Assembly (NCBI RefSeq): GCF_019204045.1
Contig: NZ_JAGSPC010000001.1
Span: 1,488,001 to 1,552,000 of the forward strand
Direction of reading: 5' to 3'
DNA: 64,000 bases
Source: Erythrobacter crassostreae
GTDB taxonomy: Bacteria; Pseudomonadota; Alphaproteobacteria; Sphingomonadales; Sphingomonadaceae
Positions 17,170 to 46,780 of this stretch are shown here, one piece after another. Each line of letters starts with the position of its first letter. Position 1 is the stretch's first letter. The notes beneath the pieces are model-generated. The model saw nothing but the letters and a program-made list of their open reading frames with translations, was not told where the DNA came from and searched no databases. The translations under genes and the position numbers were made by a program.

Positions 17170-17226
17170 GGCCAGTGGGCCACGCGGTCCCAACGCCGCG
17201 CGAGCTCTCTGTAAGGAGAGAATACA
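17170..17226 (+). promoter_or_regulatory. serC leader RNA (alphaproteobacterial serC motif)
   Basis: Three short stems precede serC: GGCC/GGCC (17170-17173 with 17178-17181), CGCGG/CCGCG (17183-17187 with 17196-17200) and CTCTC/GAGAG (17205-17209 with 17216-17220). The last stem contains the serC ribosome site AAGGAGAG. This matches the known serC RNA motif of Alphaproteobacteria, whose final stem covers the ribosome site of serC. The signal it senses is not known to me. Confidence 0.7.
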
Positions 17227-31208: not shown

Positions 31209-32189
31209 ATGAGCACCCAAAATCTCCTCGTTTTGGCCACTGGTGGCACCATTGCTGGCGCTGCCGATTCGGCGACGCGCCACGATTACCGGCCCGGACA
31301 AATCGGCATTGATGACTTTTTGAGCCGAGTCGAAGAGCTCGGGATCGAAGCGAACCTGACGGGAAAGCAGATCGCCAATATTGGCTCGGAAGATATGTCG
31401 CCGGAAATCTGGTCCGATCTGCACAAAGCGACCGCCGCCGCGATCTCTGATCCGTCATGCGACGGGATCATCATTACCCACGGTACCGATACAGTCGAAG
31501 AAACCGCGTTCATGCTTGATGTGACTCTGCCAACGACCAAGCCGGTGGTGTTGGTCGGGGCGATGCGTCCAGCGACGGCAGTGGGCTATGATGGCCTACG
31601 AAATTTCGCCAACGCTATGCGCGTCGCGAGCGATCCCCAAGCCGCAGGGCGGGGCGTCTTGGTCGTAATGGGAGACCGGGTGTTTGCGTCGCGCGATATC
31701 CGCAAAAACCGCACACGCGGGACCGATGCATTTGCAGGCTTCCCGCGCGATGCGGTGGGTCTGGTCACGCCAAGCGCGCTCGACTGGTTCGGAGCGCCAT
31801 GGCGCAGCGATGAGAGTGCGCGGTTCGATTTCCGCACTGATCTGCCGGATGTGCCGGTGCTGTTCATCCATGCGGGCATCACACCCGATTATGTGGACCG
31901 GCTGGTTACGCCAGAAACGCGCGGGATCATCGTGTGCGGAGTGGGAGAGGGCAATATGCCCGATCCGGTGCGTCAGCGGCTATTTGAGCTGTGCAATGAA
32001 AGCCTGAGCATCGTCCGCGCCAGCCGTTTGGGCGAAGGGTTGGTCGATCGCGAGCCGGAGGACGATGCAAACGGATTTGTCGCCGCGCGTGCTTTAGGCC
32101 CCGCAAAAGCGCGCATCCTACTGCAATTGCTGATCGCGGCTGGCATTTCAGAGCCCGGCGCGATCCAGATTCAATTTGATCGCCGGTGA
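31209..32189 (+). CDS. L-asparaginase
   Basis: A 326-residue asparaginase with both catalytic threonine regions: LVLATGGTIAGAAD near the N-terminus and IITHGTDTVEETAFML around residue 95. It has no obvious signal peptide, so is probably cytoplasmic or unprocessed. Hydrolyses asparagine to aspartate and ammonia. It stands alone between two RNA genes. Confidence 0.92.
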   Translation: MSTQNLLVLATGGTIAGAADSATRHDYRPGQIGIDDFLSRVEELGIEANLTGKQIANIGSEDMSPEIWSDLHKATAAAISDPSCDGIIITHGTDTVEETAFMLDVTLPTTKPVVLVGAMRPATAVGYDGLRNFANAMRVASDPQAAGRGVLVVMGDRVFASRDIRKNRTRGTDAFAGFPRDAVGLVTPSALDWFGAPWRSDESARFDFRTDLPDVPVLFIHAGITPDYVDRLVTPETRGIIVCGVGEGNMPDPVRQRLFELCNESLSIVRASRLGEGLVDREPEDDANGFVAARALGPAKARILLQLLIAAGISEPGAIQIQFDRR

Positions 32190-32280
32190 TGTCCGCTGCG
32201 GCTCTTTTTCGGTTGAGAGCGGACTGTCGGTTTACGTCCCAGTTGCTGACATGGCGGCAAGTTTTGTCTAGGTGGGATGC

Positions 32281-32388
32281 TGAGACGTGGCAGAGTGGCT
32301 GATTGCGGGTGCCGCCTTCCCTAGCGAAAGTTATAGAAGGAGCACTACGGAGCAAAAGCTCCGCGCAGGTTCGAATCCTGTCGTCTCG
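32281..32388 (+). tRNA. tRNA-Ser-like RNA with an extended anticodon loop (possible pseudo-tRNA)
   Basis: A 108-nt stretch folds like a class II tRNA: acceptor TGAGACG/CGTCTCG (first pair T-G), D arm GCAGAGTGGCTGATTGC, anticodon stem GGTGC/GCACT (32308-32312 with 32342-32346), long variable arm CGGAGC-AAAA-GCTCCG (32348-32363), T arm GCAGG-TTCGAAT-CCTGT. The D and variable arms are serine-type. The anticodon loop is 29 nt (32313-32341), not 7, and holds an inner stem CCTTC/GAAGG; no normal anticodon with T33 can be placed. CCA is not encoded, unlike the other two tRNAs here. It may be a decayed tRNA or a tRNA-shaped RNA with another role. Confidence 0.6.
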
Positions 32389-32533
32389 CTTTTTGAGTAA
32401 AACCCTCGCGTCCGCTTCCCACCCCAGTTGCAGCCATTGAGCCGCGACTTGAATCGGGCTGATTACCCACAGTCCGCTTTGTCTTTTGCAAAGGTCAGGG
32501 CCCGCCGCACTCTTTTGGCCCGCTAATCGTCGC

Positions 32534-34843
32534 TCAGGCTACTCTTGAACTCTGTACCGAGGCGCTATTTTCAAACAGCTCAGCAACATCGCTCGCCGCC
32601 ATTGGTTTGCTGAACAAATAGCCTTGAATGTTACGACACCCCTCTTGTTTTAGCACTTCGAGTTGTTCGTCGATCTCAACACCTTCGGCCAAGGTATCCA
32701 TACCGAGCGCATCGGCAAGTGTCGTGATTGCGCGAACCACCGCGTGTGAGTTCCCGCCTTGTCCCAGATCTTCGACGAAGCTGCGATCGATTTTGACTTT
32801 GTCGAACGGAAATGATCGCAGATAGCTGAGTGAGGAGTAGCCAGTGCCAAAATCATCCAGGGCGATACGAACGCCAAGGCTGCGCAGGTTGTGAAGGGTC
32901 GAAAGTGTCTTTTCGACGTCAGCGATAAAGATGCTTTCCGTGATTTCCAGTTCCAGCCTGCTTGCCGCCAAACCGGTGCTGGAAAGCGCCTGAAGGATGG
33001 TGTTCGTCAGACCTGCATAGGTAAACTGTTTGGGAGATATGTTGACAGCAACCGATACGTCTTCTGGCCATTCTGCGGCTTGCCGACATGCCTCGCGAAT
33101 GACCCATTCGCCGATCGGCAAGATCAAGCCGGTTTCTTCCGCCAGAGGTATAAAATCAAGCGGGCTGATCCGGCCGCGTTCAGGATGGTTCCAGCGCAGC
33201 AATGCCTCGAAACCTGTAAAGCGATCCTCGGCGATGCTGTAGAGCGGTTGATAATGCAGTTCGAAATCGCCGTCGCGCAGGGCGCTGCGCATATCAAGTT
33301 CGGTTTGCCTGCGCTCACGGGCCTGCTGATCAAGTGCGGGTTCAAAGAAATGATACGTCGATTTGCCCTCGCTCTTGGCACGGTAAAGCGCGAGATCGGC
33401 ATTCTTCATCAAAGTGGTGCCGTCATTCCCATCGCTTGGTGCCACCGCGATGCCGATGCTTGCGCTGCATTCCGCTTGCTGGCCTTCGAGTTCGATTGTC
33501 CGCGAAAAGCAATTTTGGATCCGGTCTGCCACAGACGCAAGGCTCGTATCGCTTGCGATGTCATCGATCAGAATGGCGAATTCATCACCACCCAAGCGGG
33601 CGATCATGGCCTCCGGCAACATCTCGCACAGATTGCTCGCAACATCGCGTAACATCATGTCCCCGGCCGGATGGCCGAGAGTATCGTTCACAACCTTGAA
33701 GTTGTCGAGATCGGCATAAACCACCATAAGCTGGTCTGTACCCCGGAGCTGTGCGACACCCCGGTTAAGTTGCTCCAGAAACAGCTTACGGTTTGGCAGC
33801 CCGGTAAGATCATCGTGCAGCCCCACATGGACGATTTTCCGTTCCCGTTCCTCAATCGCGCTCACCATCTGGTTAAAGCTTCCCGCCAACCGACCGATTT
33901 CGTCATCGGTTTCGATAACCAGGTCGACCTTGTTTCCAGCGCTAATCTGACGTGTCGCTTTGTCCAGTTTTTGCAGCGGGCCTGTGATAGTTTTCGCCAC
34001 ACGCCAGCTAAGGCCCACCACCAAAACGATCCCGCCCAATGCAAGGATAGCAAGCAGCCACTGCAGGCCGGAATACTCCGCCATGGATCCTGTCAATGAA
34101 TGGCGCAGAACCAAACGCGGTGACAATTCATCGTCGAAAGTGGGCAATGCAGATAGGTAATAAAGGTGGCGCTCGCTCTGTTCATACTCGAACACCTCGC
34201 CGTTCGGCCTGTCGCGAAGAGTAGCAGGCAAGGACGACGCACTTTCCACACTCGCTTCAAGGTCAATCGCTGCCAGATCTGTAAGACGATTGAGTTCGGT
34301 TTTATCCATCGGCTGAGCGAGGACAAGCCACCCGATCAAATCGGGCGCAGTGATCTGCGATGCCGCGGCTAGCGACAGTTCACCATCCACCATCATGATA
34401 CCCTGGTCCTGGCCATCATCCAGCTTGAACCACAGCGCATCGCTTGAGCTTATACCTGCTTCACCTGAAGCGATGATATCACCTTCGAGGGTAACAACGA
34501 ATGCCGCACCAGTGCGCGAACGTGACCTGAGGCTAACGAGAGCGCTGTTTATGGTCGGAGCGTCTTCCGTTGCGACCGCCTCGCGAAAGCCAAAATCACG
34601 GGCCAGAACATCAGATGAGCTGCGCATCTGGCTTGCTCTTAGGTCAATTATCTCATTAAAAACGCGCGCATTGGCCTGCATATCGCGGGTCGCACTCGTC
34701 TCGCCAAAGCGAGAGAGACCGCCTCCCGCAATCGCAAGAATCGCCGCCAGAACGAGCGCGAACAGCCCGGTATACAGCGCAGCGATACGCAGCTGCAGCG
34801 AACCAAATCGCAGAGTTAGGAACTTCGGCAATTCGGTCCTCAC
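32534..34843 (-). CDS. GGDEF-EAL signalling protein (c-di-GMP cyclase/phosphodiesterase)
   Basis: A 769-residue membrane protein: an N-terminal helix (about residues 18-43), a periplasmic sensor region to about 260, a second membrane helix, a HAMP linker, a GGDEF domain with intact ARLGGDEFAIL, and an EAL domain with EALLRW and DDFGTGYSSLSYL. Both catalytic motifs look intact, so it may make and break c-di-GMP. It starts with GTG at 34843 overlapping the stop of the cupredoxin gene (GTGA), which suggests that the secreted protein and the signalling enzyme work together. Confidence 0.9.
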   Translation of the reverse strand: MRTELPKFLTLRFGSLQLRIAALYTGLFALVLAAILAIAGGGLSRFGETSATRDMQANARVFNEIIDLRASQMRSSSDVLARDFGFREAVATEDAPTINSALVSLRSRSRTGAAFVVTLEGDIIASGEAGISSSDALWFKLDDGQDQGIMMVDGELSLAAASQITAPDLIGWLVLAQPMDKTELNRLTDLAAIDLEASVESASSLPATLRDRPNGEVFEYEQSERHLYYLSALPTFDDELSPRLVLRHSLTGSMAEYSGLQWLLAILALGGIVLVVGLSWRVAKTITGPLQKLDKATRQISAGNKVDLVIETDDEIGRLAGSFNQMVSAIEERERKIVHVGLHDDLTGLPNRKLFLEQLNRGVAQLRGTDQLMVVYADLDNFKVVNDTLGHPAGDMMLRDVASNLCEMLPEAMIARLGGDEFAILIDDIASDTSLASVADRIQNCFSRTIELEGQQAECSASIGIAVAPSDGNDGTTLMKNADLALYRAKSEGKSTYHFFEPALDQQARERRQTELDMRSALRDGDFELHYQPLYSIAEDRFTGFEALLRWNHPERGRISPLDFIPLAEETGLILPIGEWVIREACRQAAEWPEDVSVAVNISPKQFTYAGLTNTILQALSSTGLAASRLELEITESIFIADVEKTLSTLHNLRSLGVRIALDDFGTGYSSLSYLRSFPFDKVKIDRSFVEDLGQGGNSHAVVRAITTLADALGMDTLAEGVEIDEQLEVLKQEGCRNIQGYLFSKPMAASDVAELFENSASVQSSRVA

Positions 34844-35457
34844 CGCAGGCGTACCTTAACTTTGCGCGACTGGTCACCGGTAGAAATTCTAACCGAGGAG
34901 CTCTTTTCGTTGCGCGGCGCGCGCAGCCGCGGATGCCAGACGGTAAGTTTGGCATTGCCTGCGGGCATTGAGCGGAGAGTTATGTAGCCGTTACGATCGG
35001 TTTTGCCTGCAAAAGGCGTCTCTGTGACGCGGATGTAACCGCGCATATTATCGTGAATGTTGCAGCCGAGCTTGACGCTGCCGGCCACGGCAAATTTGTA
35101 AGACCGCGTTTGATCACGGCCGTAAAGGTCAATCTCGAACCGGGCTGGCTTTGAGAAACTGTAAACCGAATGCCGGACGTGATCGAGATTGGGGAAAGCA
35201 ACCGTGCTGCCTTTTGCGACGACCAACGTGCCCGGCGTAAATTGCTGATTTCGTTGAGCCATCGCCATTCGCCAGGGGAACTGGATCGAACCGGACCAGC
35301 CGCCATCCGGCATCAGTTCGACTACCGCGTCGCGCACAGGCACTCCGCGCTCATCCGTGACTTGAACCCGAAGGCTTGTCGAAGATGATGCGGCCAACGC
35401 ATAGCCGGTAAAAACACCGATCAGACAAAAGGCTAATATGGATCTAAAAAACAACAC
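34840..35457 (-). CDS. Periplasmic cupredoxin-like protein
   Basis: A 205-residue secreted protein with a signal peptide (SILAFCLIGVFTGYALAASS). The cupredoxin-like part has VAFPNLDHVRHSVYSF and LGCNIHDNMRGYI, giving His, Cys, His and Met in the order of a type 1 copper site. A carboxypeptidase-regulatory-like beta module surrounds it. Proteins of this kind are often labelled methylamine-utilisation proteins. It starts with GTG (35457). Coupled to the GGDEF-EAL gene and divergent from the DUF3034 gene. Confidence 0.78.
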   Translation of the reverse strand: MLFFRSILAFCLIGVFTGYALAASSSTSLRVQVTDERGVPVRDAVVELMPDGGWSGSIQFPWRMAMAQRNQQFTPGTLVVAKGSTVAFPNLDHVRHSVYSFSKPARFEIDLYGRDQTRSYKFAVAGSVKLGCNIHDNMRGYIRVTETPFAGKTDRNGYITLRSMPAGNAKLTVWHPRLRAPRNEKSSSVRISTGDQSRKVKVRLR

Positions 35458-35541
35458 CGCACCGGCCTAGACGTAAGAGTTTAAGAAATTCTCGGCGTAG
35501 AGTTAACCTCGATTTAGGCATGTTTGAGTACGCCCAAGCCT

Positions 35542-36417
35542 ATGCGAAAAATTGTGCTGATAAGCGGATGCATGGTGAGCGCGTTTTGCGCGTCGGTGGC
35601 GCAAGCCGAAGAGCTCGAATGGTTTGAGGGCGACAAGCTCGTCCTTACCAATGGAGCCTCGACGGTCGAAGGCGCAAGCGGCGGTGGTATTGCGACGTGG
35701 GCGACCATATCCGGTCTGGAAATGGATAATGGTGTCGGCGTATCCGCACATATCACTGCAATCGACTTGCCTGACTTCGGATTCCAGAGCCACGGTGTTT
35801 CCATCGGTATCAAGAACCGGGTCGAGCTTTCATATGCTCGGCAAAACTTCGACACACGTGACGTGGGTGAGGCGCTTGGGCTTGGCCAGGGTTATGTCTT
35901 CAACCAGGACGTGTTCGGCGCAAAGGTTCGCCTTTTTGGTGACATGGTTTATGGCGATCCATTGCTTCCACAAGTGAGCGTCGGTGTGCAGCACAAGCGC
36001 AATCTGGATGGTCCCGTCGTGCGTGCCGTTGGCGCCGCCGATGATGAAGGTACCGACTACACAATCAGCGCGACGAAACTGTTTTTGCGTCACAGCATTC
36101 TTATGAACGCCACTGTTCGATATACCAATGCCAACCAGACAGGCTTATTGGGATTTGGTAGCGCATCGGGCAAAGGGCATACTGTGCAATTCGAAGGGTC
36201 TATTGCATATCAGCTTTCACGCCGTGCTGTGATCGGCGCCGAAGTGCGTACGAAGCCTGACAATCTCGACCTGGGTGAGGATGACTGGATCGACCTTTTC
36301 GCTGCCTATGCTATTTCTGATAATATCACGGTAACGGCTGCTTATGCAGACCTCGGATCGATCGCTACATTCGAAGATCAGCGCGGCGCCTTTCTCTCTG
36401 CACAACTGGCTTTTTGA
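35542..36417 (+). CDS. DUF3034 family outer-membrane-like protein
   Basis: A 291-residue secreted protein with a signal peptide (MRKIVLISGCMVSAFCASVAQA) and a beta-rich body: WFEGDKLVLTNGASTVEG, GISIGIKNRVELSYARQNFDT-like segment, VFGAKVRLFGD, and a final FLSAQLAF ending in phenylalanine as outer-membrane barrels do. These phrases fit DUF3034. The ATG at 35542 is preferred over TTG at 35524. It often sits with cupredoxin and GGDEF/EAL genes, as here. Function unknown. Confidence 0.78.
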   Translation: MRKIVLISGCMVSAFCASVAQAEELEWFEGDKLVLTNGASTVEGASGGGIATWATISGLEMDNGVGVSAHITAIDLPDFGFQSHGVSIGIKNRVELSYARQNFDTRDVGEALGLGQGYVFNQDVFGAKVRLFGDMVYGDPLLPQVSVGVQHKRNLDGPVVRAVGAADDEGTDYTISATKLFLRHSILMNATVRYTNANQTGLLGFGSASGKGHTVQFEGSIAYQLSRRAVIGAEVRTKPDNLDLGEDDWIDLFAAYAISDNITVTAAYADLGSIATFEDQRGAFLSAQLAF

Positions 36418-36427
36418 GGATGAACTC

Positions 36428-36958
36428 TTGATCAAGACTGCCATTCTTACACTTTTCCTTTTGCAGCAGGCTCCTGCCGAAAATGTCGATTGGGACAAGG
36501 AATTCGGTGTCGAAGAAAGGGTGCGCGACCCGGAAACAGGCGAGTTTCCGGTGGAGCCCTATCAACAAAGCAATGAGAATGCGGGTGCGAAACCATTCCA
36601 AGGCGAGCAATTGCCCGCTGCCTTTGGGGGCCGCGAGGGCATTCAGAAGATCGCCGATCGCACTGTCGAACTGAGCGAGGCTGATCCGCGGATATCTGAC
36701 ATTTTCGTATCGCACGACATGGTCCGCCTTAAACGGACGCTTGGCGAACAATTCTGTTACCTATTGGGAGCCGGTTGCGACTATTCAGGCCGGGACATGC
36801 GCACTGCGCATGCTGGCCTTGGCGCAACGAAAGCTGATCTAAACGCGCTGGTCGAGAACCTGCAAAAGGCGATGCGCGAGGCCAAGGTTCCTTTCGCTGA
36901 TCAGAACAAACTGCTTTCAAAGCTCGCACCAATGTCGAAAGACGTGACCGAGAGATAA
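36428..36958 (+). CDS. Truncated-haemoglobin-like protein with signal peptide
   Basis: A protein of about 176 residues. From a TTG at 36428, with GAGGA in front, it begins with a short secretion-type hydrophobic segment (IKTAILTLFLLQQAPA). The rest resembles group 1 truncated haemoglobins: GGREGIQKIADRTVELSEADPRI, FVSHDMVRLKRTLGEQFCYLLGAGCDYSGRDMRTAHAGLG (pieces) with the proximal-His region in MRTAHAGL. A periplasmic globin is unusual. It lies 10 bases after the DUF3034 stop and is likely cotranscribed. Confidence 0.75.
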   Translation: MIKTAILTLFLLQQAPAENVDWDKEFGVEERVRDPETGEFPVEPYQQSNENAGAKPFQGEQLPAAFGGREGIQKIADRTVELSEADPRISDIFVSHDMVRLKRTLGEQFCYLLGAGCDYSGRDMRTAHAGLGATKADLNALVENLQKAMREAKVPFADQNKLLSKLAPMSKDVTER

Positions 36959-37126
36959 TCTAGGCACCCCCATTGAACTACGAGCGCACCTGTGCCGATT
37001 GCAGACTGTCCGCTATGGACAAATTAGGCACCTAAGGCTGCCATGCTTCGTGCGCGTGGCATCGGTTCCTTGTTGGCGGAGGTTCTGTGCGGTAGATTGG
37101 CTTACGGCTTTGGGGGGAATAGAGCT

Positions 37127-39289
37127 ATGCGACCAAATGCATTCGTTCTTGCGGCGGCGATGGGCTTGTCGGCCTGTGCGGGCACAGGCAATATTGCATC
37201 CTCAAGCAATGCCATCCAGCCCACATGGGACGAATTCGCGGCCGGCGAGTTGGCTCCGGAACCTGATCCCAATATCGTCATTAACACAGTAGAACCTGTT
37301 CAAGTCTTCGACCGGCACCCCAACGAGCCTCATCCCGTCAGGGTTCGCATGGCCAGTGATCTTGATGCCGAACAGCTTGCCATTGTCGAAGCCGCTTTGG
37401 GCTACAGGCAATCGGTAGAAAATCATCCGGCAGCGACTTACGAGATTGCACCGCATCCGGAGTTTCCCGAGCATCTGGTGTTTTACAGGATCAAAGGGAT
37501 GGGCGGGGCAGAGGCCGCAGCAATCGACCCGCGGATGAACCGCCAAGGGGCGATGACGTTGGAGGATATACTCCATTTCTATTCGTCGCGCGAAAGCAGT
37601 ATTGAGAACGCCTGGGCGTCCAATGTGCCTGTACCCATCGATCTGGGGCGCGCAGACCGCGAAGGTTTTGCCGCCGATCTGGATCGCCATATCTCAGCAC
37701 TGGCGCGCCGAGCAGCGTTGCTAACCATCGGTCAGTCCGGCGGTGATTACCCGAGCACCTCGATCTGCTTAAGCGAAGGAGCCGGATACGGTGCATCGTG
37801 CGCCATGCCAGATAGCATGGACTGGAATGAGGTGCGCGCGGGGCAGGGGTATTACTTTTCTGTCGCCGCGAAACTGGACAAGCCGCATCATATCGCTGTG
37901 ATTTCGATTTCTCCGAGCGGCAAGGTTTCGCATTTGTTGTCTCAATGGACGCGTTTCCCCGCCTACGGAGCCGAAACCGACTTTCCGATCAAATACGTCC
38001 CGACCGAATACGTGGATGACAATGGAAACCGCGTGCGTGTGTCGCAGCCAGTCACGCAGCAGCCCCGAGCTTACCCCAATGGCAAATTGATCGGTTCCGG
38101 AAGTGAGGCTGCATCGGCGCAAAATGCTGGCGGTCCGGAAACGTCGCGTAGCTATAGTTCAGTCGATAGCCGGATGATGGCCTTTGCCGCTACCGCTCAG
38201 CAGAGCGCGATTTTCACAGAACCCGGACGGCATCAGGTGATCGTCATGGCGACAGAAGATGCGATCAATCAGGCCATTTGGGAGCTTCAATGGGGCGACC
38301 AAGTACCGGCCAATATGTGTGTTGGAGACATTGAGGAATCGCTGTGCTCGGCGCTCACTCGGGGCGTGCCGGGCGATAATTTTGATTGGCCGCAAAACAT
38401 CCGCACTTTCACAGTCGATGCTCTCAAACCCATTCGATCCGACGGTTACATAATCAACGGGTTTGCCGCCTCTGCCGGTATCTCCAAATGGCAGGCTCAG
38501 CTTTTCTTGTACCGGGAAGGCGATGCGTTTCATCGCTCGACATCCAGCCCGCGCAACAATTTTGAAAAGGCGCACAAATGCGGTGGGTCATATGTTGGCG
38601 GCGGTTACATTCTGACCGCGGCGCATTGCATTCGGCCAGATTTGAAGGAGATGCGCATCCGGCTTGGCACGCGTGATATCGCAACCGGAGGGCGGACGTT
38701 CAGGGTTCACTCTGCCGCGATACATCGCCGTGCGAAATCGAGTTCAAGCAGGGCGGATATTGCGCTGATCCGGATTGATGATCCGCGCGGTTATCTGGCA
38801 CGTATGGGCGGCAGCCTCGCCGCGATCGCAACGGCGGGTAGCGGCCGTTATCGCTCGACACGGTACAACAAACTCATCGTCACAGGCTGGGGTTATATGA
38901 GCGCGGCATCGCCCGGTGCGGGCGGCCCGGTTGCGGCCGATGGGACAACCCAGCGAAACCCGCGCTATCTGCAAGGGCTCTCTCTGCTGCCAGTGCCTGC
39001 GAACGCTTGCACCCGGCTTCGCGGATTCGGCGGTTTCAGCGCAGCGGACATTCTTTGCGCGAGAGGCTCAATCGCGGGCAGCGATTCTTGCAATGGTGAT
39101 AGCGGCGGGCCGGTCACGTCACGCGTGGGCAACCGCAGGGTTCTGGTTGGAGTTGTCTCCGTCGGGAAGGGATGTGCGCAAGGCAACACACCCGCCATTT
39201 ACATGCGGGTGGAAAGCTACGCGGATTGGATCGCAAAAGCGCGGTCACGCCTAAAAACCGCGCGTAAAGGCGGGCGCCTCACAATTTAG
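37127..39289 (+). CDS. Large trypsin-like serine protease (lipoprotein or secreted)
   Basis: A 720-residue protein. The N-terminus MRPNAFVLAAAMGLSACAG has a lipobox-like SAC. Residues ~30-470 are an unrecognised region with beta-rich stretches. The C-terminal S1 protease domain has the full triad: H500 in LTAAHC, D544 in ADIALIRI and S659 in GDSGGPV, with VTGWGYM. Trypsin-like proteases of this form are far less usual in bacteria than DegP types. The ATG at 37127 has a GGGGGGAA site before it; 37043 is an alternative upstream start that hides the signal. Confidence 0.83.
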   Translation: MRPNAFVLAAAMGLSACAGTGNIASSSNAIQPTWDEFAAGELAPEPDPNIVINTVEPVQVFDRHPNEPHPVRVRMASDLDAEQLAIVEAALGYRQSVENHPAATYEIAPHPEFPEHLVFYRIKGMGGAEAAAIDPRMNRQGAMTLEDILHFYSSRESSIENAWASNVPVPIDLGRADREGFAADLDRHISALARRAALLTIGQSGGDYPSTSICLSEGAGYGASCAMPDSMDWNEVRAGQGYYFSVAAKLDKPHHIAVISISPSGKVSHLLSQWTRFPAYGAETDFPIKYVPTEYVDDNGNRVRVSQPVTQQPRAYPNGKLIGSGSEAASAQNAGGPETSRSYSSVDSRMMAFAATAQQSAIFTEPGRHQVIVMATEDAINQAIWELQWGDQVPANMCVGDIEESLCSALTRGVPGDNFDWPQNIRTFTVDALKPIRSDGYIINGFAASAGISKWQAQLFLYREGDAFHRSTSSPRNNFEKAHKCGGSYVGGGYILTAAHCIRPDLKEMRIRLGTRDIATGGRTFRVHSAAIHRRAKSSSSRADIALIRIDDPRGYLARMGGSLAAIATAGSGRYRSTRYNKLIVTGWGYMSAASPGAGGPVAADGTTQRNPRYLQGLSLLPVPANACTRLRGFGGFSAADILCARGSIAGSDSCNGDSGGPVTSRVGNRRVLVGVVSVGKGCAQGNTPAIYMRVESYADWIAKARSRLKTARKGGRLTI

Positions 39290-39359
39290 GATTGCGCCAA
39301 AGAGTAGAAGCTATGGGGCCCCGGCGCTTTGTACGTGCTGGAGCCCCGCAAAGCATAAG

Positions 39360-39644
39360 TCATTCCTCGTCGGCGCCAGTGCGCTCGTCAACACCTGTGC
39401 GTTCATCAACACCTGTGCGTTCATCAACGCCGGTGCGCTCGTCAACACCGGTGCGCTCATCAACACCTGTGCGTTCATCAACGCGAGTACGGTCATCAAC
39501 ACCATCGCGGTCATCGCCGCCGGTGCCGTCTTCTGCCGATGTCTTGGGTTCTTCAACGCCATCAGACCCCTCATGCCCCTGACACGCAGCAAGGCTAAGG
39601 CTGAGCGCGCTCACTGCGCCAATGATCATTGCATTTGTCTTCAT
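39360..39644 (-). CDS. Repeat lipoprotein (RTGVDE repeats)
   Basis: A 94-residue protein with a signal MKTNAMIIGAVSALSLSLAACQG (lipobox LAAC) and a body formed largely of an 18-base, six-residue repeat RTGVDE, seven to eight copies, strongly acidic and hydrophilic. It resembles a low-complexity tether or a charged surface brush. The ATG at 39644 follows AAAGGATC; the ATG at 39659 is an alternative. It lies between the protease and the TIR-TPR gene; function not known. Confidence 0.68.
   Translation of the reverse strand: MKTNAMIIGAVSALSLSLAACQGHEGSDGVEEPKTSAEDGTGGDDRDGVDDRTRVDERTGVDERTGVDERTGVDERTGVDERTGVDERTGADEE
39379..39522. repeat. 18-bp tandem repeat, about eight copies
   Basis: Units starting at 39379, 39397, 39415, 39433, 39451, 39469, 39487 and 39505, each near GTGCGTTCATCAACACCT, with the last two diverged. 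The period is a whole number of codons, so gain or loss of a copy keeps the lipoprotein frame. It is a minisatellite likely to vary in copy number between strains. Confidence 0.85.
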
Positions 39645-39674
39645 ATTCGATCCTTTCATGGAACTACTGATTGG

Positions 39675-41654
39675 TTACTCAAAGCCCATTCGTCCGACTG
39701 CTCGTTGGTATCCTTCGGTTCCGCGCAGAGGGTCTAGCATCGGGTCGCGGTAAATCTGCACCAGACCCGCATCACGCGCGGCCCATGCGGCTTCCAGCGC
39801 GGCGAGCGCCTCGGCTTCATTGCCCCACTGCGCATGGACTTGTGCGTATTGGTAATTGCTCTTGTCGCCTTGGCGCTCTCTGAGCTCTGCAAAGTGCCTC
39901 TCAGCCTCCGCGCGATTACCAAGTTTGTCTTCGACAATCGCAAGACCGGTTTTCTTGAAGACATACCGCGTCTCGGCTTCGAAATTCGTTTTGGCAGATG
40001 CTAGGTCGCCAAGCGTGAGCCGGGCCCAGCCGACAAGATTGTGATAGCTTGAAAGCCCCTCATTCAGGCCATACGCTTTTTCATATTCAGGTATGGCCGC
40101 CCCGGGCTCACGCGAATTGTAGGCGATGTTTCCGGCATAGCGGAACACGCGGGCGTTTAGAGGATCCAGAGATTCTGCCAGCGCTATCGCGGCTTTCGCT
40201 TCGCTATCATCGCCGATGCGTGATCGGAAAATAGCATAGCGGCTGAGAATGTCGGCATCCCCTTTGCCCAATTCATACGCTTGCTTCCACGGGGTGAGCG
40301 CGCCTGCCACATCGAGCTTACCCGTCGCAAAGATAAAGCCAAGCACAGCGTACCCATCGGCGAAATCAGGCGCGATTGCGATCGCTCGCCGCGCGGCCTC
40401 GGCGGCAGCGTTCATCGCACCGTCCCTCTCGCGCGGTGCACCATAAAGGTTCTGGATCAAAGCTAGCGTTCGCCCGCGCTTTGCGTGAGCGGCAGCGTAG
40501 TCAGGATCGAGCCGGATCGCCTCGTTGAACTTGGCCAAGGCGGCACGGTCGCTCGCCTCATCTGTTCCGGAATCATAGAGTTCTTGCCCGCGCAGAAATG
40601 CATCATACGCTGCGACATTTTGCGTGCCGCCCGAAAGCCCATCCGCTGTTGAGCGATCATCCGCTCCTGAAAGCAAAGTGACGATACCTGCCGCAATCTG
40701 GGATTGAATGGCGAACACGCTATCAATCGGACCTTTGATCTCGAATTCTCGAAGCACTCTGTCGGTATTTCCGTCGATCAATTCCGCACCGCCTGCGAGA
40801 GTATCGCCCTCACGCCGGATATCACCGGTGAGCAGATAGTTCACATTAAGCTTTCCGCTGATTGCGCCGGCGGTATCGCCTGTATCGCGGAACGCATTGG
40901 AGGATGTTTTTGCCGCCACATGCAGCAACGGATTGCGTGCCAACTGCGAACGAATTTCCGCAGCAAAACCTTCGAGTAGATACGAACCTTCGCCCGGCTC
41001 CCCCATCACACTGAACGGCATCACTGCCAGTTTAATGTCTGTTGCACCGCCCGTGAACAGCCCGCCACTCCAAGCGGCAACGCCGCCTGCCCCAACGGCG
41101 AGCGCCGCCCCGCCAAGAATAGCCGCGCGGCGGCTGATGACAGGGCTGGTTTTAGCCGGTGCTGCAATCGTCCCGGTGCCTGAAGGTTCTGTGCCTGCAG
41201 GTCCTGCAAGTGCCGAGCGCTCGCCATCCTGCTTTAATTTGACCGCCTTTATCAGTCTTTCGATTTCCGGAGTGTCCGCCGTCCAATCGGCGTCTGCGGG
41301 CAGAGTAATCCATTGAAACTGGCGAAATCCCAATGGCGGCTCTGTGCCGTCGATGGAAACGGGGACTAGCGCCCCGCGATCGCGTCCGCGTGTCGCTTCG
41401 TCATGGACCCAGTGCGAGACTGCGGAGACCTTGGACCACAGCACGACAACCGCATCTGCGGTTTCAAGCTTATCCTCGGTCACTGTATGGTAGCGTGCGC
41501 CGCCTTCGAGCATGGCATCCCACCACACTGAAATGCCAGCATCCTGAAGCAGGTCGAGCACCTTGCGTGCCAAGGGTTGATCATCCCTCGAATAGCTGAG
41601 GAATACAGTGTCCTTTGCCGTTCCGACTTGTTCTGGATGATCCAGACCGCTCAT
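39675..41654 (-). CDS. TIR-domain protein with a membrane helix and TPR repeats
   Basis: A 659-residue protein. Residues ~14-125 form a TIR domain (DTVFLSYSRDDQ, ISVWWDAML, then EDKLETADAVVVLWS with E60/E64 as candidates for a catalytic Glu). A single membrane helix lies at ~178-197 after RR. Residues ~205-320 resemble a TolB/FlgO-like domain (AVMPFSV), and ~345-650 hold TPR repeats. TIR domains can hydrolyse NAD or bind partners. This architecture is common in sphingomonads, often labelled adenylate-cyclase-like. Divergent from the SLOG-like gene. Confidence 0.82.
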   Translation of the reverse strand: MSGLDHPEQVGTAKDTVFLSYSRDDQPLARKVLDLLQDAGISVWWDAMLEGGARYHTVTEDKLETADAVVVLWSKVSAVSHWVHDEATRGRDRGALVPVSIDGTEPPLGFRQFQWITLPADADWTADTPEIERLIKAVKLKQDGERSALAGPAGTEPSGTGTIAAPAKTSPVISRRAAILGGAALAVGAGGVAAWSGGLFTGGATDIKLAVMPFSVMGEPGEGSYLLEGFAAEIRSQLARNPLLHVAAKTSSNAFRDTGDTAGAISGKLNVNYLLTGDIRREGDTLAGGAELIDGNTDRVLREFEIKGPIDSVFAIQSQIAAGIVTLLSGADDRSTADGLSGGTQNVAAYDAFLRGQELYDSGTDEASDRAALAKFNEAIRLDPDYAAAHAKRGRTLALIQNLYGAPRERDGAMNAAAEAARRAIAIAPDFADGYAVLGFIFATGKLDVAGALTPWKQAYELGKGDADILSRYAIFRSRIGDDSEAKAAIALAESLDPLNARVFRYAGNIAYNSREPGAAIPEYEKAYGLNEGLSSYHNLVGWARLTLGDLASAKTNFEAETRYVFKKTGLAIVEDKLGNRAEAERHFAELRERQGDKSNYQYAQVHAQWGNEAEALAALEAAWAARDAGLVQIYRDPMLDPLRGTEGYQRAVGRMGFE

Positions 41655-41982
41655 ATGCCCCTCTATTGCAGAAATACTGCACCCTTGACCGTGCGACCGG
41701 AACGCATGAGATAACGCAGCTTATCGGCCCTGTCGAACTCTGTTCGCAAAAGTATGCGGGACGCACGCTGTGCTTGTCGAATGTTTTGTGTGCGGTTAGC
41801 ACCTGAGATGAAAAGCCGAACCGCTTCTCCCGGGGGGAACAACGATCACGCCGAATACCGATCCAGCATCGCCCGGACAGGGTTTTGAGCCGCCTGCGCC
41901 CAGGCCTTGTCTTGCCATCGGTGTCACAGGACATCGCCGCTCGCACCCCGCGTTTCCAGCCGACATTGCGGCGCTATCAGCG

Positions 41983-43866
41983 GTGCTTTCGGAGATTTTC
42001 TCTGCTTTGGAAGATGCTGGGACCGACTGTGAGGTCCACGGGACTGAACCACAGCCACCTGCGCTGCGTTTGCTGACATTGCTAGCCGACGGGACCGACC
42101 ATCTTGCGGCAGAGCTCGCGCTGGCAAAGGCTTGGGAGCTGACCGTTCCGTTGCCATTTGGCCGGGCGCTCAATACCGCTATCAACGCTGATCCGGACAC
42201 CGCTGCAGATCCACGCGCGATCTTGGCTGGTAGAGCGCCTGATGATGCGCCCACAGGCAAGCGTGCGGCTGCGATAGAAGCGCTTTTGGATAAGGCCACA
42301 GTTTTCGAATTGGCAGAGCGTGATGCGATTGTTGCTGATCACTTTCTCGCCACGCTGGATAATCCCAGTGATCCGAAAGCGCTCAGCACTTTTCTCCACC
42401 ATACGTCTGACCGGACACTGCAAGCAGGCCGTATCCTGATCGAGCAGTCGGACATTTTGATCGCGGTTTGGGACGGGGTATCTACCACCAATATTGGCGG
42501 AACAGGCCATACTGCGATAGCTGCTCTTTCGGCTGGAGTTCCGGTGATCTGGATCGATCCTGCATCACCGGACGAATGGCGCATTGTGTACACGCCCGAT
42601 GCGCTTGCTCTTAAACCGCCGCCTACCGCTGCGTCGCGCGATGCGCAATTGCGGGCTTTGGTAGGCGATAGCGTTGGATTGGCTGCGCCTGATGAAGACA
42701 GCCCCCATGCCGGGCTCGCCGCCCTTGGCAAAGAAGCGTGGCGGGGCCGCAGCTCGGCAAGCAGTCACGCCTATCGCCGCGTAGAGGCACTGTTTGGGCA
42801 TAGCAAATGGCGCGAAAAGTTCGGGTCTATCCGGCAGACCTTCGAAGCACCTGACGAAGTCGCAACGGGAAGCGGGCAACCTTTGCTGGACTCGCTCGAT
42901 GCGCTTCCGGGCGGCGATGAGCGGATCACGTGCGCCATCGGTGAGGATGTTCTGAGCCGTTTTGCATGGACCAACGCCATCGCATCGCGTCTATCGGACC
43001 TGTTCCGGTCGGGAATGGTGCTGAACTTCACTCTCGGCCCGCTCGCGATCCTTGTCGGCCTGCTTTATATTCCCACTGCTGGGCCCGAATACAAATGGAT
43101 TTTCGCGGCGCTAGAGCTCCTTTTGCTGCTGGTTATTGTGGTCAACACACTTTCGGGACAACGCGCACGTTTGCATGCCCGCTGGTTGGAAACGCGGCGT
43201 CTGGCCGAATATCTGCGTCATGCGCCCGGCCTGCTTGCATTGGGCGTGGCCCGGCCTGTTGGCGGCCGGCCGCAAAGCGTCCGTGGCAGTTGGCCGGAAT
43301 GGTATGCTCGTCAGGTCGCCCGCGGTGTCGGTTTGCCAAACGTCAAAGTGGATGGCGCGTATTTGCGTGCGTCTGCGCGACTGTTGCTCGATCACGCGAT
43401 CCAACCTCAGCTTGAATACCATCAAGGCAAATCGGCGCGCCTTCACCGCGCGCATCACGCCATCGAAACGTTGGCCGAGAGGCTATTTGCGCTCGCTGTC
43501 ATAATGGTAACGCTTTATCTGGTGTTGTTCGGACTATCGACGCTTGGTGTGATTGCTCCCGAATTGGTCACGACCTTGGCCAAATGGTTCACGGTAAGCG
43601 CAGTCGCGTTGCCAACCATTGCCGGTGCCCTCGCCGCGATCGGATATTTCGGGGATTTTGATCGGTTCGCCGATATCTCGGAAATGACCGCGCGCAGGCT
43701 TGAGGCGCTGCAAGAGCGCACCGTTATGTACCTTGAGCAGAGCGACGACGCGCTCGGTTACGCCCCGTTGGCGCAGCTAGCGCGGCAGACAGACGAAACA
43801 ACGTTCGCCGAAATTCAGGCATGGCAGGCAGTGTTCAACAACAAGCGTACGACTGTCCCCGCCTAA
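41983..43866 (+). CDS. SLOG-like domain protein with four membrane helices (SLATT-like)
   Basis: From the GTG at 41983 a 627-residue protein is read. The frame stays open upstream to 41812 and codes LAIGVTGHRRSHPAF at ~41911-41955, which is a classic SLOG-type start (VTGHR), so the true protein begins earlier. No ATG, GTG or TTG lies there in frame. An ATC at 41845 follows GGGGGGAACAACG; alternatively an ATG at 41808 is one base out of frame across a six-G run. Downstream, a nucleotide-binding-like half is followed by helices near 43015-43085, 43096-43155, 43480-43555 and 43585-43650, recalling SLATT effectors. SLOG proteins sense or make nucleotide signals. Confidence 0.65.
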   Translation: MLSEIFSALEDAGTDCEVHGTEPQPPALRLLTLLADGTDHLAAELALAKAWELTVPLPFGRALNTAINADPDTAADPRAILAGRAPDDAPTGKRAAAIEALLDKATVFELAERDAIVADHFLATLDNPSDPKALSTFLHHTSDRTLQAGRILIEQSDILIAVWDGVSTTNIGGTGHTAIAALSAGVPVIWIDPASPDEWRIVYTPDALALKPPPTAASRDAQLRALVGDSVGLAAPDEDSPHAGLAALGKEAWRGRSSASSHAYRRVEALFGHSKWREKFGSIRQTFEAPDEVATGSGQPLLDSLDALPGGDERITCAIGEDVLSRFAWTNAIASRLSDLFRSGMVLNFTLGPLAILVGLLYIPTAGPEYKWIFAALELLLLLVIVVNTLSGQRARLHARWLETRRLAEYLRHAPGLLALGVARPVGGRPQSVRGSWPEWYARQVARGVGLPNVKVDGAYLRASARLLLDHAIQPQLEYHQGKSARLHRAHHAIETLAERLFALAVIMVTLYLVLFGLSTLGVIAPELVTTLAKWFTVSAVALPTIAGALAAIGYFGDFDRFADISEMTARRLEALQERTVMYLEQSDDALGYAPLAQLARQTDETTFAEIQAWQAVFNNKRTTVPA

Positions 43867-44056
43867 GCGATATTACTCCTGCATGGATGGTGTAGGAGGG
43901 TGCTGTCAGTCGCCGAACCCAATGGGTATTCTTGCGAACGATACATTTGGTTGAAATGACCGCAGATGGGCTGATAGCGGACGGTCTTGTTTCCCGGGCC
44001 GCAACGTTCAAAGCTGACAGTCAGCTTCCGACCCAATTGCAGATGTAGCACTGCTG

Positions 44057-44085
44057 TTGACACCGATTTCAATTTGATCTAGTGC
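44057..44085 (+). promoter_or_regulatory. Possible sigma-70 promoter of the marR gene
   Basis: A perfect TTGACA at 44057-44062 stands 17 bases before TAGTGC (44080-44085), 22 bases ahead of the marR start. The -10 is weak. The rest of the 240-base gap (43867-44106) shows no gene. Confidence 0.35.
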
Positions 44086-44106
44086 ATATACACGAAAGGG
44101 CGCGCT

Positions 44107-44532
44107 ATGGATGATAAATTAATTGCAAACACCTGCTATGCCACCCGAGCTCGGCGCGCTGCGCGGCATCTCAGCCGCATGTATGATGATGCGCTTAGAC
44201 CGCATGGCATCAAGGTCAGCCAGTTCTCAATTCTCGTCGCCGCATCCGTATCGCGCGGAGACGCTACAATTACCGAACTAGCCGACGAGCTCGGCCTGGA
44301 GCGCTCCACACTGAGCCGCAATCTGCAACCGTTGGAACGGCGCGGCCTTGTCGAAATCGGAGAAGAACAACAGCATCGCTCGCGTCAAGTATTGCTTACG
44401 GCGCAAGGCGAACGTCTGATCGAGGACGCCTATGGTGATTGGGCACGGGTTCAAGACCGTGCGCGTGGACAATTGCCGATTGATGAGAGCGCAATTCTGG
44501 GCAGCCTGAGCGCCCTTAACGCAATCACCTGA
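44107..44532 (+). CDS. MarR family transcriptional regulator
   Basis: A 141-residue MarR protein: helices around ARRAARHLSRMYDDALRPHGIKVSQFSIL, then the winged helix ATITELADELGLERSTLSRNLQPLERRGLVE and the wing QQHRSRQVLLTAQGE (pieces). Full length for the family. It leads a plus-strand run with a membrane protein (30 bases on) and, after a further gap, a drug efflux pump, so it probably represses these and is relieved by a small molecule. Confidence 0.88.
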   Translation: MDDKLIANTCYATRARRAARHLSRMYDDALRPHGIKVSQFSILVAASVSRGDATITELADELGLERSTLSRNLQPLERRGLVEIGEEQQHRSRQVLLTAQGERLIEDAYGDWARVQDRARGQLPIDESAILGSLSALNAIT

Positions 44533-44562
44533 GCAAACCCGGTTCCATCAAGGAGAAGAACA

Positions 44563-45216
44563 ATGGCCTCTAACGTGTATATACAAGATAGCGAAGGTGC
44601 GGCAGTACCTTCTGGGGAGTTTGAATACTGGCACTGGAGGGTCTTCGTAGTCCTCGCGCTTTGGGCAGCCGGGGTTGCTGCGGCCACTCTTGCGGGTGTG
44701 TTCGAGACGCTGCCAATGCAAGCGGTCGCTCCACTGGCGGCGCTGGGCATTATCGCGCCGGTCGTGCTTTATAAGACGGTCCCTTCGCTGGGCGCTTTCT
44801 TGCGCTCGCGTTCGCTTGACTATTTCACGACGTTCCATCTGTGGCGCATCGGCGCAGCTGGCCTTTTCTTCTGGTATGGTTCGCAAAACCTGCTGCCAGA
44901 AACGTTTGTGCGTCACGCAGCTTGGGGCGATCTGCTTGCCGGATTGCTTGTACTCCCATTGCTGTTTTCCGCCAGCAAAGGACTTCGCAAATATGTCCTG
45001 TTTCACACTGTTGGGTTTCTCGACTTCATCCTTGCTGTTGGGACCGGGCTTTATTTCACCATCATCGGCGATCCAGCAATGTCGTCGATCGCGACCCTAC
45101 CCCTTATCCTGATCCCGCTGTTTGGTGTCTCAGTATCGGGTGCCTCGCATATCATCGCTTTCGATATCATGCGCGGTCGCAGCCAAGGTGATGCCGCCTA
45201 TGAGCAAGCCGCATGA
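44563..45216 (+). CDS. Multi-pass membrane protein of unknown function
   Basis: A 217-residue protein with about six membrane helices, for example VFVVLALWAAGVAAATLAG, AVAPLAALGIIAPVVLY, LLAGLLVLPLLFSA and LPLILIPLFGVSVSG. It has a good ribosome site (AAGGAGAAG) and lies 30 bases after marR, so it is likely the first target of this regulator. I do not recognise the family. Confidence 0.7.
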   Translation: MASNVYIQDSEGAAVPSGEFEYWHWRVFVVLALWAAGVAAATLAGVFETLPMQAVAPLAALGIIAPVVLYKTVPSLGAFLRSRSLDYFTTFHLWRIGAAGLFFWYGSQNLLPETFVRHAAWGDLLAGLLVLPLLFSASKGLRKYVLFHTVGFLDFILAVGTGLYFTIIGDPAMSSIATLPLILIPLFGVSVSGASHIIAFDIMRGRSQGDAAYEQAA

Positions 45217-45345
45217 CTGTGCTGGTTCGCCACGCGAGTTCGGAGCAGGGCGGTGCCATAGCGCATCGCCTTGACTCCAAAGCCGACTACATCAGGGGTA
45301 GCTTGCTAGTTAGACAGCTGGGACGCCACTACCCGGAGGACAGGC

Positions 45346-46590
45346 ATGACATCTGAGACATTTCCCGCGCAAACCAGCAAGCCAGCAGTCGTTAAAACGA
45401 CGGGCTTTCTCGTCCTGCTCGCTATCCTCTCCGCCCTTGGGCAGTTCGCAAGCAACGTATATCTTCCATCCTTGCCTGCCGTAACGGAGCAACTCGGTAT
45501 CAGCGGTTCGGTCGCGGCTCTTACTTACACCATTTATTTGGGTGCGTTCGCATTCGCTCAACTGGTTTACGGTCCCGTCGCGGACAGGTTTGGCAGACGC
45601 CCGCTCTTGCTGTTAGGCGCGATCCTTTTCGTGCTCGGCTCGGGGATGTGCATGCTCGCAGGCGATGTTTCCTGGCTGCTCACTGGCCGTGTAATTCAGG
45701 CGATCGGCGCGGCGGCAGGCGTCGTGATGGCACGCGCCATGGTGCGCGACGTGTTTTCAGGTCCCGAACTCGCCAAAGCGCTTGCCCTCATGACAATCGT
45801 GTTCGCGCTGGCGCCTGGTTTAAGTCCGCTCTTGGGAGGCGTGCTTCAAGATACTCTTGGCTGGCGTTCGGTGTTTGCAGCTGCAGCAATCGCGGGTGTT
45901 TTGGTATTAATCGCAGCAACTGTTTACGCTCCGGAAACCTTGGCAAAAAAGTCGGATGCAATCAGTTTGTCAGGAACGGCGAAGAGCTATCGAGCGATAC
46001 TCGCTGATACTGAATTCTTCCGCTTCGCGCTGGCGACAGCATTTATCATCGGTGCGATGTCAGCCTTCTTTGTGGGTTCTCCAATCGTCTTCATCGATCT
46101 GCTCGGAGTGTCCGCGACGGAATATGGACTGTACCCGCCGCTTGCCATAACTGGATTTATCATAGGGAGCGTCGCGACGCGCAAACTTGCTGGACGGCTC
46201 GCGGTTTATGATCTCGCGAAAGTGGGCGTCTCGATTTCCTTGATGGGGGCAATTCTGATGGTGGTATTCCCACTGTTCGGGATTGAGCACAAACACGCGA
46301 TCAATGTTTCGATCGTCGTATTCGTGAGCGGAATGGGCGTTTTCATGCCAACGGCGGTGGCGATCGCGTTGGAGCGTTTTCCAGAACGCGCTGGCACAGC
46401 TGCCGCGATGCTCGGGTTTTTGCAGATGGGTATTGGTGCTGCAGCGTCGGCAGGCGTCGGCTTGCTTGCCAATGCTCAGCCATTTCTCGCTTTTCCAATT
46501 ATCATGGTGGTCTCGGCGCTTTCTGCCTTCGCACTAGTTGCCACACCTAACTCCGACTCAAGCGGCGATGACATAATGTCGTCTTCATAA
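45346..46590 (+). CDS. Bcr/CflA-type multidrug efflux MFS transporter
   Basis: A 414-residue major-facilitator protein with 12 expected helices. The Bcr/CflA marks are NVYLPSLPAVTEQLG, QLVYGPVADRFGRRPLLLLG (motif A) and LTGRVIQAIGAAAGVVMARAMVRDV (motif C region). Members pump out drugs such as bicyclomycin and chloramphenicol. The start follows CCGGAGGAC. Placed behind MarR and the membrane protein with a 130-base gap that may hold its own promoter. Confidence 0.88.
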   Translation: MTSETFPAQTSKPAVVKTTGFLVLLAILSALGQFASNVYLPSLPAVTEQLGISGSVAALTYTIYLGAFAFAQLVYGPVADRFGRRPLLLLGAILFVLGSGMCMLAGDVSWLLTGRVIQAIGAAAGVVMARAMVRDVFSGPELAKALALMTIVFALAPGLSPLLGGVLQDTLGWRSVFAAAAIAGVLVLIAATVYAPETLAKKSDAISLSGTAKSYRAILADTEFFRFALATAFIIGAMSAFFVGSPIVFIDLLGVSATEYGLYPPLAITGFIIGSVATRKLAGRLAVYDLAKVGVSISLMGAILMVVFPLFGIEHKHAINVSIVVFVSGMGVFMPTAVAIALERFPERAGTAAAMLGFLQMGIGAAASAGVGLLANAQPFLAFPIIMVVSALSAFALVATPNSDSSGDDIMSSS

Positions 46591-46716
46591 TTCGATGGAG
46601 CGATGACCACCTTGACTGCAAACCTTCAAATTATGCTAGTCAAAACTCATAGCCTCAAAACACCCCAACCTGAGGCATTCGTGCAAAGCGCAGCTTTTGA
46701 CCAAGTCGGTCGCCGG

Positions 46717-46756
46717 GCGGGGATGGACTAGCGGGCTTTGCCGCTGCCATCCCCGC
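46717..46756. terminator. Bidirectional terminator between the MFS and dehydrogenase genes
   Basis: GCGGGGATGG (46717-46726) pairs with all ten bases of CCATCCCCGC (46747-46756), with an inner GCGG/CCGC pairing. It lies between two converging genes and could end transcripts from both. Confidence 0.7.
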
Positions 46757-46780
46757 TCTATTCTCAGGCGATAGGGCGGT

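Follow-up and report, generated by a model that had tools for sequence, protein, structure and literature searches.

The RNA gene at 32281-32389 of the window (the whole 64,000-nt stretch of Erythrobacter crassostreae DNA that was analysed) has the shape of a serine tRNA with a closed hairpin in the place of the anticodon. It probably derives from a sphingomonad tRNA-Ser and probably has a job outside protein synthesis. We are confident that it is a real, selected, mobile and non-decoding RNA gene. We also lean, by a modest degree, towards the reading as a whole, according to which it would be a non-decoding mimic derived from tRNA-Ser that serves as a decoy or regulator and is carried as mobile cargo. 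That it acts on a partner of tRNA-Ser is the tentative part of this reading. The RNA is composed as follows.

32281..32389, + strand: tRNA-like RNA, nt 1-109 (nt 109 is C, the base after a 7-bp acceptor)
32281..32287, + strand: 5' strand of the acceptor, TGAGACG (the conserved helix is nt 2-7)
32290..32306, + strand: D arm with a 3-bp stem and a serine-type loop (from the sequence and the 14-member alignment)
32308..32346, + strand: anticodon arm, a 5-bp stem and a 29-nt closed hairpin loop, without an anticodon
32315..32340, + strand: apical hairpin CCTTC/GAAGG, with an inner TAGC-GAAA-GTTA (read directly)
32348..32363, + strand: variable arm with a 6-bp stem (from the 14-member pair counts)
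32365..32381, + strand: T arm with the loop TTCGAAT (from the alignment)
32382..32388, + strand: 3' strand of the acceptor, CGTCTCG, followed by C (32389) and TTTTT; no CCA

An earlier note on this DNA had described well-paired class II arms, a six-base variable stem, a 29-nt loop with its own CCTTC/GAAGG stem, a T-G first acceptor pair and the lack of a CCA, and all of this can be read directly in the sequence, with C and TTTTT after the acceptor. The anticodon stem, GGTGC/GCACT, has five base pairs, as does the T stem. Both ordinary tRNAs of the window encode their CCA, unlike the tRNA-like RNA. ARAGORN calls no tRNA in the window copy, nor does any Rfam family reach its gathering score there. 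The best sub-threshold Rfam match is tRNA-Sec, an identity that we rejected, given 20.7 bits against a cut-off of 47, no UCA anticodon and an acceptor of 6-7 rather than 8 bp. (Elsewhere in the window, a serC leader RNA at 17173-17225 on the + strand scores above its Rfam cut-off.) Two relatives do receive an ARAGORN call, G016 as tRNA-Phe(gaa) and G104 as tRNA-Gly(ccc); both have loops of 13 nt, and we take both anticodons to be false.

Fourteen members make up the RNA family: the window copy (G000) and 13 relatives (G283, G1088, G016, G249, G252, G104, G558, G153, G385, G384, G493, G1101 and G1046), all from one bacterial family. G104 is Parerythrobacter lacustris RS5-5, and G558 is Parasphingorhabdus marina DSM 22363; genomes listed under two handles were matched by coordinates, for example G253 = G283. 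Nine members are labelled as belonging to the window's bacterial family, and the five found via the genus of G249 are unlabelled; this genus includes G253 = G283, labelled as the window's genus.

These members stem from several searches. With blastn, 12 of 149 genomes of the bacterial family gave matches, namely the window, two full relatives (G016 and G104) and nine genomes that we did not accept as members, their matches being T arms of tRNA-Pro (one of the two matches in G090 lies outside any called tRNA). A three-member covariance model matched in 245 of 249 family genomes and also picked up ordinary tRNA-Ser; among the matches listed, four genomes exceeded 80 bits, and all others remained at or below 66 bits, with the length of ordinary tRNA-Ser. 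A DNA pattern found 88 loci in a collection of 84,980 species, seven of them members. A family-wide spread was dismissed, as 80 of these loci are stretches of one protein gene (presumably uvrA-like) and one is a chance match in Streptomyces. Run on 396 genomes of the order, an eight-member model had matches at E <=1e-10 in 22. Seven of these exceeded 75 bits, with G385, G384 and G493 as new members; the other 15 genomes scored at most 72.9 bits, and the three that were viewed hold ordinary tRNA-Ser. A tight D-arm pattern matched eight times in 397 family genomes, in seven members and in G106, where the match is no tRNA and was discarded. The class-wide model search (385 genomes, E <=1e-10) returned the window and three other genomes, whose matches we read as ordinary tRNA-Ser and excluded. 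In plasmids and phages, blastn found no match to a 131-base query at E 1e-3. None of the open-access PubMed Central texts consulted describes this RNA. The models find members near known ones, and more distant members may hide among the tRNA-Ser matches.

In G016, G249 and G252 the RNA occupies the same place, directly after a gene that we take to be tadA. The RNAs of G016 and G249 share 89% identity, compared with 34% for the 44 nt before it, 27% for the stretch after it and 70% for the last 400 nt of the upstream gene. A query composed of the gene end and the RNA had a match in 58 of 99 genomes of G249's genus, in 52 of them to the gene end alone. The RNA was matched in six (G249, G252, G253 = G283, G1101, G1088 and G1046), three of which were new; the search scored seven candidates per genome, and a diverged RNA could be missed. 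Gene end and RNA lie together in two of the six (G249 and G252), and at separate places in four. The frequencies, 7/397 in the bacterial family and 6/99 in the genus, come from even draws of genomes and are rough. The presence of the RNA in few genomes speaks for its being dispensable.

Where the RNA is present, its pairs are kept. In the 14-member alignment, 13 of 28 pairs have changed on both sides, compared with 5.4 in shuffles, and none of 500 shuffles reaches 13. Of the 392 cells, 96.2% are paired, a figure also reached by none of the 500 shuffles, and favoured by the procedure, since the MAFFT alignment was made without structure and the structure was written from the window copy. Sliding the partner by 1-3 columns leaves no more than three pairs with both-sided change. 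The first eight members alone had 97.8% of cells paired and both-sided change in 11 of 29 pairs. Such changes affect all six pairs of the variable arm and three pairs of the anticodon stem. Outside pair 1-72, the 378 cells comprise 330 Watson-Crick pairs, 40 G-U pairs, no A-C pair and eight other combinations. The 40 G-U cells against no A-C cell indicate that the RNA of the + strand is what is conserved, with the proviso that 26 of the 40 belong to two pairs fixed in 13 of 14 members (the first pair of the anticodon stem and the first pair of the T stem, the latter G-U in 13/14) and therefore count as few events; the remaining 14 are spread across ten pairs. Only seven members have a standard pair 1-72, and pairs 2-7 are standard in 83 of 84 cells. 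The residues of the D and T loops are nearly invariant. Comparison thus shows that selection on the + strand RNA keeps the elbow elements (D loop and T loop), the helices and the long variable arm.

Folding energies are less telling. The 108-nt stretch folds better than its shuffles (z -3.16, 1/200 as good), and two relatives are less distinct from theirs (z -1.86 and -1.47, with 10/200 and 20/200 as good). The cloverleaf rests on comparison and not on energy, because none of the three minimum-energy folds is a full cloverleaf; the lowest-energy fold of the window copy misses the D and T stems.

Could the RNA be a decaying tRNA-Ser pseudogene, moved passively by a repeat element and functionless? 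The patchy occurrence (6/99 genomes of one genus), the loss of the CCA and the position of several copies between repeat motifs would fit this idea, as would broken pairs in the acceptor and variable arm of G1046 and, as aligned, in the variable arms of G384 and G493. Decay does not predict compensatory changes in 13 of 28 pairs without any A-C cell, nor an RNA that is better kept than its flanks at the syntenic site, and we consider it improbable. The earlier note had held the intact arms against simple decay, had proposed a tRNA mimic or regulatory RNA among other roles and had called for an analysis of covariation. The arms are indeed conserved among relatives, which fits a mimic or regulatory RNA rather than simple decay, and the covariation is there. 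The note had named lack of conservation in relatives as a sign against its case: the pairs are kept in those that have the RNA, but an RNA match was found in only six of the 99 genomes.

The members share a long variable arm, a serine-type D arm and the T loop with translational tRNA-Ser, and like pseudo-tRNAs they have a tRNA fold that is unable to decode. The seven-base loop of such a tRNA, with its U33 and serine anticodon, is missing from all 14. Comparison shows the anticodon loop to be replaced by a closed hairpin of changing length: 29 nt in three members, 28 in two, 26 and 21 in one each, 14 in two and 13 in five. The loop starts with C-N-C-C and finishes with GGA in 13 members and CGA in one, and the two outer C-G pairs of the apical hairpin are kept in 14 and 13 of 14. 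A GAAA or GAGA tetraloop, seen by eye in 6/14, is no family feature. The earlier note had also considered a spliced or processed tRNA, in which the hairpin would be an intron whose removal gives a working anticodon loop. The five-pair anticodon stem has the normal length for this, but loops of 13, 14, 21, 26, 28 and 29 nt have only their start and end in common, with no constant insert, no U33, no consistent seven-base remainder and no anticodon to be restored. This suggestion has become scarcely credible.

Upstream of the RNA are two candidate promoter elements.

32246..32251, + strand: putative -35 box, CTGACA (consensus match only)
32268..32273, + strand: putative -10 box, CTAGGT, after a 16-nt spacer; it ends 7 nt before nt 1 (consensus match only)

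We scanned for -35 and -10 hexamers at a spacing of 16-18 nt, with the -10 box allowed 3-14 nt before nt 1. Summed over 11 members, the promoter-like score is 87, compared with a mean of 66.1 at random positions and 0/2000 draws as high; this control is lenient and favours the result, the random positions being drawn from the same, mostly coding regions. Several members score 6-7 of 12. The best -10 box ends 5-9 nt before nt 1 in 12 of 14 members (13 nt in G558 and 14 nt in G1101), a nearness that is partly built in by the scan range. That the RNA has its own putative promoter and starts at about nt 1-2 is thus supported, but more weakly than the fold. With such a start, no 5' trimming would be needed and nt 1 would lie outside the helix.

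The 3' end can be counted in two ways. With a 7-bp acceptor, the next base is C in 12 members and T in two. With a 6-bp acceptor, it is G in 11 of 14 (two T and one A in the others), followed by C in nine of these 11. Thirteen of the 14 members lack an encoded CCA; G016, counted with six pairs, reads GCCA. The window's genome carries ordinary tRNA-Ser genes with TGA, GCT and GGA anticodons, and the acceptor of host tRNA-Ser(GGA) is GGAGACG/CGTCTCC, followed by G and CCA. Most members read nGAGACG/CGTCTCG, sharing with the host tRNA the acceptor core GAGACG/CGTCTC as well as the serine D arm, the variable arm and the T arm. They differ from it in lacking the anticodon loop and U33, in the absence of the CCA (13/14) and in the loss of pair 1-72 in half of them. 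Set beside the host tRNA, the mimic gives the impression of having lost pair 1-72 and kept six pairs. An origin from a Bacteroidota tRNA-Ser was dropped, since the host tRNA-Ser fits the acceptor stem.

The 6-bp count opens up another possibility, that the RNA donates serine outside translation: with a 6-bp acceptor, G73 and C74, its end would be completed by the CCA enzyme, and a non-ribosomal transferase would use the serine. Pair 1-72 is indeed standard in only half of the members, G stands at position 73 in most of them with C usually next (GCCA in G016), and taking one base from the host's CGTCTCC-G-CCA gives CGTCTC-G-C. The three members without the G, the restriction of GCCA to one of 14, an unusual 11-bp acceptor domain and the lack of a transferase among the ten window-segment proteins scanned all speak against it, and we rate a serine donor as unlikely. 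Allo-tRNAs have a 12-bp acceptor domain, arranged as 8/4 or 9/3, together with an anticodon (PMC7609411), compared with 6/5 or 7/5 and no anticodon in the sphingomonad RNA.

The RNA lies in a region that differs between congeners.

32186..46780, no strand assigned: segment of about 14.6 kb absent from two congeners (G041 and G264), delimited by lost collinearity
32191..32252, + strand: left copy, partial or degenerate, of a GTCCGC...GCGGAC palindromic repeat (GTCCGC at 32191 read directly)
32410..32436, + strand: start of the right copy, GTCCGCTTCCCACCC (an exact 15-base match; the HMM match is weak, E 2.5)

The window is collinear with the congeners as far as 32167 or 32185 and then again from 46781 or 46783 onwards, which places the RNA about 95 nt inside the left border of the segment. 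The predicted products of the segment are a MarR regulator, an MFS transporter and proteins of the GGDEF-EAL, DUF3034, globin-like, trypsin-like and TIR-TPR kinds. None of the ten proteins scanned was seen to be a recombinase. Models of defence systems matched generic parts only, namely TIR, a winged helix and, weakly, a protease. The GC content is 54-59% in the segment, 59-61% to its left and 57-62% to its right.

Away from the syntenic site, little besides the RNA is shared. The window and G283, its nearest relative then known, have common DNA only from -39 to +144 (about 184 nt, 88.6% identical), G558 and G153 only from 0 to 103 (93%), and G384 and G493 only from -54 to +157. When the neighbourhoods of eight members were compared, those outside the three syntenic ones gave two protein matches. 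One (62%, G283 and G016) is far from the RNA in G016. The other (37%) involves the genes that directly follow the RNA in G283 and in the window, the latter encoding a GGDEF-EAL protein, and could reflect a shared neighbour; GGDEF-EAL proteins are common, and the DNA just after the RNA is not alignable between the two (28%). Apart from the three syntenic ones, the compared neighbourhoods have no gene in common, and the RNA thus travels without a partner gene. The comparison shows that the unit turns up again and again at sites unrelated to one another, often next to a palindromic repeat, and the RNA reads as an element that is mobile or has been inserted repeatedly. The flanking repeat motif, the position at the border of a segment missing in congeners and the recurrence at unrelated sites all go beyond what had been noted before.

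The left repeat copy is matched by nhmmer at 32216-32252 (repeat positions 52-88, E 3.7e-4). The extra segment also contains a further half copy (44010-44045, E 1.4e-3), flanked by the MarR gene and by an ORF of 627 aa that matches no Pfam family. Six of 14 members (the window, G283, G1088, G558, G153 and G493) are flanked on either side by GTCCGCTT, the motif with which a palindromic repeat starts, allowing one mismatch; it lies 48-96 nt ahead of the RNA and 5-32 nt behind it. Random positions in the same regions are flanked likewise in 0.2-2.2% of cases (five of the six members, without G1088). The motif is found only after the RNA in three members (G252, G104 and G384), and on neither side in five (G016, G249, G385, G1101 and G1046). 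That the RNA adjoins palindromic repeats, and in one genome lies within an array of them, could mean that the fold has its role in single-stranded DNA, perhaps within a recombination site that serves a cassette system. The absence of the motif from both sides in 5/14, the nearly invariant D and T loop residues and the excess of G-U over A-C cells, which points to the RNA of one strand (again with 26 of 40 cells in two pairs), render this very improbable.

The array is in G384. There, an 89-nt palindromic repeat occurs at least 17 times, at spacings of 353-1763 bp, and the RNA lies among the copies. Mostly single small ORFs, called mechanically and to be read as putative genes, lie between the repeats, and the RNA is the sole feature of its 635-bp interval besides an overlapping reverse ORF. 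The array (L213, G384:C1:2644000-2662510, continued in L265) resembles the cassette array of an integron, in that its palindromic repeats mostly enclose a single small ORF, or the RNA. In attC sites the RYYYAAC box comes first and the GTTRRRY box last; the G384 repeats, by eye, have GTTAGC and then GCTAAC, the reverse of this order. No integron integrase (TIGR02249) exceeds the cut-off in any of 11 member genomes, nor in any of 14 control genomes, so that the control holds no positive, and nothing in the array reaches an Rfam gathering score. Membership among integrons is thus unsupported, and we call the array cassette-like without filing it as an integron. Weak matches to the integrase model (20-22 bits, at G384:C1:2635149, G283:C1:1074170 and G385:C1:473216-474507) are found no more than about 1.5 kb from copies of GTCCGCTTNCCACCC and are probably other tyrosine recombinases. 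In G153, the 20 kb around the RNA (L168) hold 28 matches to GTCCGCTT, many of them within CTAATGTCCGC...GCGGACATTAG palindromes, possibly a second type of array.

As for function, the kept features are those that a tRNA-Ser binding protein would touch, and the absent ones, the anticodon and an encoded CCA, are those that the ribosome needs. This would be expected of an RNA that works by its shape. Seryl-tRNA synthetase, which does not read the anticodon, would be the most likely partner; a review describes it as recognising the variable arm and G73, and not the anticodon (PMC7609411). Charging by this enzyme is disfavoured, because with a 7-bp acceptor the members have C or T instead of G73, and because 13/14 lack a CCA. 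The RNA may then act as a decoy or regulator that is carried as the cargo of a mobile unit. A bolder version, more doubtful than likely, holds that these are RNA-only mobile cassettes: derivatives of tRNA-Ser with a closed-off anticodon and their own promoter. Sphingomonads would exchange them in palindromic-repeat arrays that function as integron cassettes do but lack an integron integrase, and they would serve as decoys, either for a protein that binds tRNA-Ser or for an enzyme that attacks tRNAs.

The target might also be more specific. As defence cargo, the RNA could be a decoy or antitoxin against a tRNA-cutting toxin or a phage factor, the closed arm being uncuttable at the anticodon. 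The mobile setting is compatible with this, and so is the TIR protein of the window segment, which weakly matches defence TIR models (best E 1.2e-9). Two phage contigs hold a look-alike in which a GAAA-capped hairpin stands for the anticodon loop. Still, no tRNA-cutting toxin was recognised among the ten window-segment proteins, and the family model gives ordinary phage tRNA-Ser higher scores than the phage look-alike, which leaves this possibility rather unlikely. The look-alike, the same class II tRNA-like RNA at L316:514-618 (388 kb contig, IMG/VR 3300031998_000001) and L317:1274-1378 (101 kb contig, 3300028887_000092), has one long GAAA-loop hairpin as its anticodon arm, no CCA, a T-run after it and an ordinary tRNA-Tyr nearby. 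Its predicted minimum-energy fold is a full cloverleaf, and its score with model R2, 50 bits, is below those of four ordinary tRNA-Ser from other viral loci. To judge from this score, it is a parallel case rather than a proven relative. The viral D-arm pattern had given at least 120 loci. Of the first 120, 108 had a recognisable T arm and were screened only for how far it lies from the D arm, which would miss short hairpins. Two long viral loci, L283 and L326, were read by eye as tRNA-Leu and set aside.

The nearest functional precedent is tRNA-Other of Bacillus cereus. Its host belongs to another phylum. As described, tRNA-Other is a pseudo-tRNA beside a pathogenicity island whose deletion changes the cell wall and antibiotic resistance (PMC3399842). 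Like the sphingomonad RNA, it is described there as tRNA-shaped, unused in translation and located at the border of a genomic island; it has a Trp anticodon (PMC3399842), whereas the sphingomonad RNA is a class II, serine-type molecule with a closed hairpin and a putative function.

Non-decoding RNAs with the shape of a tRNA have become known one by one, and their roles are mostly poorly understood. A set of 14, with a common body, a hairpin for the anticodon, strong conservation of pairs and a mobile setting, makes such a role testable. The set also suggests that sphingomonads may have cassette arrays which lack an integron integrase and carry an RNA gene among their cargo.
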